Under the pieces are notes generated by a model. That model searched no databases, was not told where the DNA came from, and was given only the letters and a program-made list of their open reading frames with translations. A program made the translations under genes and the position numbers. Positions 35,212 to 39,382 of a stretch of DNA of 64,000 bases are shown in pieces (positions within the stretch are counted from its first letter, which is position 1; the number at the start of each line of letters is the position of its first letter). Source of the DNA: an uncultured Clostridia bacterium (lineage in GTDB: Bacteria > Bacillota > Clostridia > Christensenellales > Borkfalkiaceae); the NCBI GenBank assembly GCA_947625865.1, contig CANQQD010000001.1, positions 100,465 to 164,464 of the forward strand. Reading direction: 5' to 3'.

Positions 35212-35290
35212 TCAAGCGGCGTGTCGCTTGACCCGGGTATCTTAATTGCGGGAGCGGTAGACGAAGGCTATCGCACGTCAAACGGCGGCG
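35212..35290 (+). repeat. Dispersed repeat, family C copy 1
   Basis: GTCAAGCG-gcgtgt-CGCTTGAC followed by CCGGGTATCTTAATTGCGGGAGCGGTAGACGAAGGCTATCGCACGTCAAACGGC. Confidence 0.7.
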
Positions 35291-35458
35291 TGTCGCCGCG
35301 GACGGGTTGTCCGTGGGACAACGTTAAATACTCGCTGCGCTCGTGCTAAATACGCCTTTCGGCGTGTTAAATATTTGCTACGCAAATGTTAAATATCGGC
35401 TGCGCCGACGTGAAATATTGCACTTTGTGCAATGTTGTGGTGAAGATTATAAGAAATA
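35284..35458 (+). repeat. Tandem ~22-bp hairpin array 1
   Basis: Successive stems GCGGCG/CGCCGC, GTTGTCC/GGACAAC, ACGCC/GGCGT, ATTTGC/GCAAAT, TCGGC/GCCGA, ATTGCAC/GTGCAAT separated by GTTAAATA-like linkers. Confidence 0.85.
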
Positions 35459-35476
35459 GGTTTTTCTATACCCTCC

Positions 35477-35537
35477 ACTCCTTGCCCTCTTCCGTCGCCG
35501 ACGGGGGAGGGTGGCGACGTAGTCGTCGGGTGGGAGC
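35477..35537 (+). repeat. Family A repeat
   Basis: hairpin-2 variant GCGAC-gta-GTCGT. Confidence 0.8.
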
Positions 35538-35547
35538 GCCGCTGACG

Positions 35548-35721
35548 TGTTGTCCGCGGGACAACGGTAAATACTCGCTGCGCTCGCGCCTATACGCCTT
35601 GCAGCGCGTTAAATACTCGCTCCGCTCGTGATAAATATTTGCTGCACAAATGTTAAATATCGGCTCCGCCGATGTGAAATATTGCACTTTGTGCAATGTT
35701 GTGGTGAAGATTATAAGAAAT
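35548..35721 (+). repeat. Tandem hairpin array 2
   Basis: Same order of hairpins as array 1 with loop/stem substitutions. Confidence 0.85.
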
Positions 35722-35738
35722 GGGGTTTTCTATACCCT

Positions 35739-35799
35739 CCACTCCTTGCCCTCTTCCGTCGCCGACGGGGGAGGGTGTCACGAAGTGACGGGTGGGAGC
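35739..35799 (+). repeat. Family A repeat
   Basis: hairpin-2 variant GTCAC-gaa-GTGAC. Confidence 0.8.
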
Positions 35800-35809
35800 G
35801 CCGCTGACG

Positions 35810-35981
35810 TGTTGTCCGCGGGACAACGGTAAATACTCGCTGCGCTCGCGCAAATTGCTCTCTTCGCTCGCGTTAAATATGCTGCGCATTTTAAATATTT
35901 GCTGCGCAAATGTTAAATATCGGCTGCGCCGACGTGAAATATTGCACTTTGTGCAATGTTGTGGTGAAGATTATAAGAAAT
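35810..35981 (+). repeat. Tandem hairpin array 3
   Basis: Same linkers; includes ATGC-tgc-GCAT unit. Confidence 0.85.
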
Positions 35982-39206: not shown

Positions 39207-39382
39207 GTGTTGTCCTGCGGACAACGTTAAATACTCGCTGCGCTCGCGCCTATACGCCTTGCGGCGCGTTAAATACTCGCTGTGCTCGTGGTAAATATTT
39301 GCTGCGCAAATGTTAAATATCGGCTCCGCCGATGTGAAATATTGCACTGCGTGCAATGTTGTGGTGAAGATTATTAGAAATA
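39207..39382 (+). repeat. Tandem hairpin array 4
   Basis: Same hairpin order as arrays 1-3; includes ATTGCAC-tgc-GTGCAAT loop variant. Confidence 0.85.

Follow-up and report, generated by a model that had tools for sequence, protein, structure and literature searches.

The window analysed here, a 64,000-nucleotide stretch of DNA from an uncultured Clostridia bacterium, carries four arrays of short hairpins, which we tentatively read as one-armed, amplified copies of a dispersed hairpin-chain element acting as a DNA structure. The best reading of the sequence comparisons is that this element is real, widespread and selected for its fold and not its sequence.

All four arrays are read on the minus strand (Table 1). 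Each starts with the anchor ATTTCTTATAATCTTCACCACAAC, one base of which differs in array 4, and continues as a chain of hairpins of 11-17 nt with spacers of roughly 7 nt (ATTTCAC, ATTTAAC, ATTTACC and some further variants); in short form, the array strand reads TTCACCACAAC-hairpin-ATTTMAC-hairpin-ATTTMAC. The distal end of every array is GTTGTCC-NNN-GGACAAC on the minus strand, and the DNA fold of the array gave z = -4.1 to -4.3. Arrays 1-3 are tandem duplicates with a 264-bp period and a 90% match. We located the hairpin units, the linkers GTTAAATA/GTGAAATA and the fixed end motif GTTGTGGTGAAGATTATAAGAAAT at the places given in the initial annotation of this DNA, and the end motif is found four times in the window (0.00 expected); the three arrays that it listed are all present, but the fourth was overlooked. 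Its unit GCGGCG-tgt-CGCCGC does exist at 35285-35299 but lies outside the linker frame, and the unit order, which it described as kept across arrays, is not strictly so, array 3 lacking the ACGCC unit and having ATGC-tgc-GCAT and GCTCTCTTCGCTCGC instead. The view that tandem duplication does not explain the units holds for the unrelated stems within one array, so that ordinary duplication was rejected as a full account, but duplication does explain the three neighbouring arrays. Nor are all units self-complementary, as had been claimed: the omitted unit ACTCGCTGCGCTCGY (35330, 35573, 35615 and 35835) is not a Watson-Crick palindrome. Its bottom strand reads RCGAGC-GNA-GCGAGY and contains tandem G.A, the omitted unit (CTCGCTGCGCTCG) being of the tandem-G.A kind; given sheared G.A pairs, ACGAGC-GCA-GCGAGT is palindromic on the minus strand alone. 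Reading the array hairpins as intrinsic terminators was rejected, since by inspection the linkers follow them without a T-run and in canonical copies a terminator lies outside the chain, and the TATAAT beside the window anchor was rejected as a promoter, not being kept in the sister species (G076).

Table 1. Hairpin arrays, individual units of array 1 and sites of a second repeat family, in window positions
Feature	Position	Strand	Remark
Array 1: anchor ATTTCTTATAATCTTCACCACAAC and six hairpins	35306..35457	-	
Array 2: anchor and seven hairpins	35549..35721	-	
Array 3: anchor and seven units	35811..35981	-	ATGC-GCA-GCAT among the units
Array 4: anchor and seven hairpins	39209..39381	-	
Anchor-proximal hairpin ATTGCAC-AAA-GTGCAAT	35417..35433	-	replaced by ATTTTGC-GGA-GCAAAAT in other genome copies
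Hairpin GTCGGC-GCA-GCCGAT	35395..35409	-	outer pair G.T; most copies have ATCGGC
Hairpin ATTTGC-GTA-GCAAAT	35373..35387	-	
Hairpin ACGCC-GAAA-GGCGT	35352..35365	-	tetraloop of GNNA form
Unit ACGAGC-GCA-GCGAGT	35330..35344	-	tandem G.A mismatches
Distal hairpin GTTGTCC-CAC-GGACAAC	35306..35322	-	sole unit class without the GNA rule
Second repeat family, GGAGGGTG...GGTGGGAG	16198, 16383, 22216, 22414, 23143, 35506, 35770, 59108	+	
Second repeat family, GGAGGGTG...GGTGGGAG	36074, 39675	-	

To assess coupling of the stem arms, 3' arms were shuffled among distinct linker-bounded segments. Arm pairing in the 13-, 15-, 17- and 18-mers was 97, 88.5, 92 and 92% in the real segments and 58, 58, 55 and 51% after shuffling. 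Within the window's own genome alone, pairing fell from 77.6 to 65.7%, a smaller drop that is partly due to tandem G.A units being counted as unpaired. In an alignment of twenty two-armed (canonical) elements, from which the consensus structure was itself derived, 94.1% of the paired cells were paired against 80.6% when shuffled, and none of 500 shuffles was as good, though these shuffles ignore relatedness; sliding the structure by 1-3 columns, a control that retains relatedness, left 37-50% paired. Double changes were found in 26 of the 39 pairs of this alignment. An orthologous element in the rpsJ-rplC spacer of the S10 operon is kept in three species with compensatory changes (from G-C to T-A in GGCGGCGG/GGCTGCGG); the element is absent from a close relative (G084). 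The stem changes are thus coupled in both the arm shuffles and the canonical alignment, and the earlier interpretation gains support in so far as it posits a folding nucleic acid; the stems are held by pairing and not by sequence, on one strand and probably as DNA.

Copies are also present in other genomes, so that neither of the observations named in the initial annotation as refuting it, a lack of copies elsewhere or uncoupled stem changes, was made. The anchor pattern matched 5 of 399 genomes of the family, every one in the window's genus, including Candidatus Coproplasma avicola and the uncultured Clostridia genome Lapin-025. In the order, for which 397 genomes from 142 genera were covered, the linker-only pattern (ATTTMAC x3) matched 39 genomes in 27 genera, a pattern count from which six genomes were set aside as probably spurious, five on their matches (G413, G438, G459, G531 and G643) and G427 on account of a higher reversed-pattern control. 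ATTTCAC x3 matched 30 of 394 genomes of the class (25 of 223 genera), again a pattern count with a few spurious matches. Reversed-pattern controls were nearly empty. Stems vary by species, being ATTTGC, ATCGGC and ATTGCAC in the window's genome against TTTTTTGC, TTGCGC and TTTTGCC in the sister species, and across genera the linkers are kept while the stems are wholly replaced yet still paired. When a collection of genome contigs was first searched with the exact anchor-based pattern, no match was obtained; a looser anchor pattern gave 12 matches, those in a Bacteroidetes MAG and in Flagellimonas being attributed to chance. Plasmid records gave no match to the element; in viral contigs, true chains were few and most of the matches were other sequences. 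One unverified human-faecal phage record (MT835590.1:14853-14980, L340) is 73% identical to a canonical element over half the query.

In its common form, seen in other families, the element consists of two arms in inverted orientation, whose linkers are complementary, and a closing stem that covaries. Its order is terminator, CAACGAAAT, a closing strand (e.g. AAATCC), GTGAAAT-joined hairpins, the closing strand GGATTTATTTC and ATTTCAC-joined hairpins, while the window version, as in the sister species, is a single arm with its anchor. The closing stem (helix 2 of the canonical alignment) covaries as AAATCC/GGATTT, ACGCC/GGCGT and TTGCCC/GGGCAA. DNA minimum-energy folds of two elements (L205 and L112) pair several of the arm linkers into a ladder of four-way junctions, a linker pairing that lacks covariation support since the linkers hardly vary; at the tip of L112 the inverse of the anchor TTCACCACAAC is present and pairs with it. 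In L202-L221 the 5' closing strand (AAATCC, ACGCC, TTGCCC) is pairable with either a local or a distal partner and both partners co-change, which looks like a structural switch. At the right end of canonical elements from several families (L202, L205, L209, L210, L219, L220 and L194), a conserved stretch CATCTAAACCRTTCGGCT follows the last ATTTCAC after about 12 nt. Canonical copies stand in fixed orientation directly after a bidirectional terminator, and a tRNA gene lies within 130 nt of 22 of the 70 elements from the order and class, its 3' end facing the element in all 22. Neither the 31 elements of the window's genome nor the 14 of the sister species showed such proximity. An Arg-His-Gln-Lys tRNA cluster with a downstream element occurs in several families (L194, L195, L216 and L097), and one element (L200) lies near tmRNA. 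No description of the two-armed element was found in the open-access literature searched.

An Rfam search of the window at the gathering threshold gave no match, and a permissive search gave Gut-1 (RF01706) at 42.3, 30.1 and 29.5 bits, the gathering score being 50. Canonical left arms score 67-75 bits with the same model; the right arms are matched on the opposite strand, at 26-48 bits. Aligned to window positions 35343-35421, the model covers three hairpins joined by GTTAAAT/GTGAAAT linkers, as in the published definition of three hairpins with GUGAAAU. The window arrays are a divergent relative of Gut-1. The question raised by the initial annotation, whether the family had already been described, is thereby answered in part: Gut-1 corresponds to a single arm of the canonical element, and the window arrays match it below its gathering score.

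The loops and mismatches indicate which strand folds. Counted as distinct sequences on the ATTTCAC strand, and not as independent events, 107 of 158 triloops were G..A and only 3 were T..C, the middle position taking all four bases and the closing pair being C-G in 150 of the 158; G..A also made up 44 of 75 tetraloops (GNYA 24, GNRA 20), and 23 of 32 tandem mismatches were GA opposite GA, with CT/TC in none. Other species, whose stems are unrelated in sequence, follow the same loop rule. One element slot alternates between ATCAAC..GTTGAT and ATCGAGC..GCGAGAT, so that Watson-Crick pairs are swapped for tandem G.A, and G.T and other half-compensated stem states are present as well. Because these loop and mismatch biases would be unexpected if the opposite strand folded, they support the ATTTCAC-bearing strand as the one whose folding matters. 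An arm-to-arm copying system, suggested earlier as the source of the palindromes, is not supported, since copying would yield a Watson-Crick palindrome and one whole unit class instead has tandem G.A in fixed orientation. The second repeat family of the window consists of constant flanks enclosing exchangeable hairpins, and here too the hairpins (GTCAC-GAA-GTGAC, CGAC-GTA-GTCG and GCCCT-GAA-AGGGC) have GNA loops on one strand.

ViennaRNA energies for DNA and RNA do not separate the two for triloops, the energy model having no GNA bonus. In RNA, GNA triloops are not known for unusual stability. In DNA, GNA triloops with a sheared G-A pair have been described (PMC9828363), and GNNA tetraloops are stable, as the analogue of RNA GNRA (Nakano 2002, as reported in PMC8373063). 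Extrusion of the phage N4 early promoters requires a C:G closing pair and a loop with 5'G and 3'A; with magnesium present, the N4 hairpins extrude at a superhelical density of -0.035, their formation in vivo depends on gyrase, and their loop structure differs between the strands (PMC4496689). The loops, closing pairs and mismatches of the element (C-GNA-G, C-GNNA-G, tandem G.A) obey the rules known for DNA mini-hairpins of unusual stability. Given that the positions required in N4 are those conserved here, and that GNA and GNNA loops are described for DNA, we infer that the active form is more likely DNA than RNA. Against this, sheared G.A and GNRA-type loops suit RNA too, and the fixed post-terminator orientation of the canonical copies also suits a transcript.

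Gut-1 may indeed be a true small RNA or the 3' region of a transcript, with a chain that binds a protein or protects the transcript end, as would fit its publication in a group judged the likeliest to be expressed as noncoding RNA (PMC2864571). Covariation suits RNA equally, and the rpsJ-rplC copies lie within a ribosomal-protein operon. However, triloops outnumber tetraloops and GNYA occurs as often as GNRA, which is not what RNA usually prefers, and the window copies stand in mixed orientation to neighbouring genes (rough gene calls). Moreover, the two arms have their GNA loops on opposite strands, so that in any one transcript only one arm would follow the rule, and the strand of the Rfam model is the one with the complementary TNC loops. 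Taken together, action as RNA seems to us possible but on the whole unlikely.

The distribution of copies bears on mobility. The window's genome (1.76 Mb in 71 contigs) gave 41 array matches by BLAST, several at contig ends, and by rough gene calls the arrays lie mostly in intergenic spacers. One chain (C18:21447-21539) has other stems (ATATC-GAA-GATAT and ATGCGGGC-GCA-GCCCGCAT) with ATTTAAC linkers, and no anchor within the matched stretch. The window locus corresponds to an empty site in G082, where the gap between DegV (86% identical) and the AEC transporter is about 65 bp; in the relative G080 (L146) another tandem repeat, AAGCGTGGCGCTTGGCC..., fills the DegV-AEC spacer, which therefore accumulates repeats of unrelated families. 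The empty site, a high copy number in one species with near absence from its genus, the constant short tag preceding the hairpins and the placement of copies directly after terminators, as in group IIC introns (PMC4424553), would all suit a non-autonomous mobile element with a single-stranded intermediate, moved by a transposase in trans (REP/RAYT or IS200/IS605-like) that recognises the folds. But the orthologous copies are kept with compensatory changes, which suggests function and not recent movement; no target duplication was established, and a Y1 transposase is absent from the window's genome. Among the 397 genomes of the order, Y1 transposase was found in 14 of 39 element carriers and 126 of 358 others (p = 1.0), ruling it out as a general mover, and we consider a mobile element improbable. 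In one family of the order (f4), a Y1 protein is present in all four element carriers (G491, G662, G726 and G750), though at weaker E-values of about 1e-15; in G662 and G750, for which reading frames were listed, it is long (259-282 aa) and RAYT-like. Most element-free genomes of this family have none; this may be a local association.

Mutational template switching, which would maintain palindromes without selection by copying one arm to the other, suits short, near-perfect stems that are complementary despite unrelated sequences, but is very improbable, since it would erase tandem G.A mismatches, would not fix GNA to one strand or the C-G closing pair, and does not readily produce coupling between closing-stem strands that covary although about 80 nt apart.

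For the favoured reading of the arrays as a DNA structure, we propose that negative supercoiling, or single-stranded exposure during replication or transcription, would snap each hairpin out on the GNA strand, in the manner of the phage N4 early promoters. In two-armed copies, linker pairing could then give the ladder of four-way junctions. Beside strongly transcribed units such as tRNA operons and the S10 operon, the hairpin chain could absorb torsional stress; alternatively, a structure-specific protein could recognise it there, and the chain may be a multivalent structured ligand, as was suggested earlier. No partner protein for the chain was found, and the lack of tRNA proximity in the window's genome and the sister species counts against the favoured reading. 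The one-armed version would have multiplied in the intergenic spacers of the window's species, and the empty site in G082 also speaks for this reading. We thus infer that the element has a torsional or structural role beside transcribed units and is gained and lost quickly. In a bolder version, which we hold to be unlikely, Gut-1 would be no RNA at all but a single arm of a two-armed DNA element in Clostridia, with an extruded ladder that controls torsion or serves as an end mark of tRNA and ribosomal-protein operons. If the favoured reading is right, DNA secondary structure would be under chromosomal selection on a large scale with the sequence almost free, and for a motif listed in 2010 as a probable RNA the model would use the less probable strand and might even describe the wrong kind of molecule. 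With the loop rule (C-GNA-G on a single strand, the arms on opposite strands), extrusion in vivo at natural chromosomal sites becomes directly testable, and ATTTCAC-hairpin-ATTTCAC offers a simple annotation pattern for many unexplained intergenic repeats of gut Clostridia.

Several known systems resemble the element in part. It shares with group IIC intron targets the placement directly after terminators (PMC4424553), but no intron sequence was seen here. Integron attC sites are also folded single-strand DNA of variable sequence; however, the window arrays have no inverted core sites (RYYYAAC/GTTRRRY) that pair with each other, GTGAAAT falls outside the core-site consensus and no gene cassette was seen. 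GTTAAAT was rejected as a GTTRRRY core because the linkers within an arm, including GTTAAAT in the window, are direct repeats only. REP/BIME sequences are likewise high-copy, intergenic short palindromes with stems differing between families (PMC3733652), but the present element has no GTAG/CGTC tag, its flanks being ATTTMAC and CAC/AAC in all parsed units, and unlike REP/BIME with RAYT it has GNA loops and no association with Y1 transposase. The hairpins of the N4 promoters have the same short, sequence-tolerant stems, C-G closing pair and G-N-A triloop on one strand, whereas here many hairpins are chained in bacterial chromosomes. Gut-1 has three hairpins with GUGAAAU linkers, a pattern that the canonical left arms and, below the cut-off, the window arrays match; the Rfam model, though, describes one arm, on the strand with TNC loops, of what is here a two-armed element, and Gut-1 was published as "human gut only" (Weinberg 2010, PMC2864571), whereas related chains occur here in many genera and in MAGs such as Coproplasma avicola and Lapin-025 (hosts judged from the names). 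The kind is thus known as Gut-1, while its extent, its two-armed form, the loop rule and the probable folding strand are, as far as we have searched, new.
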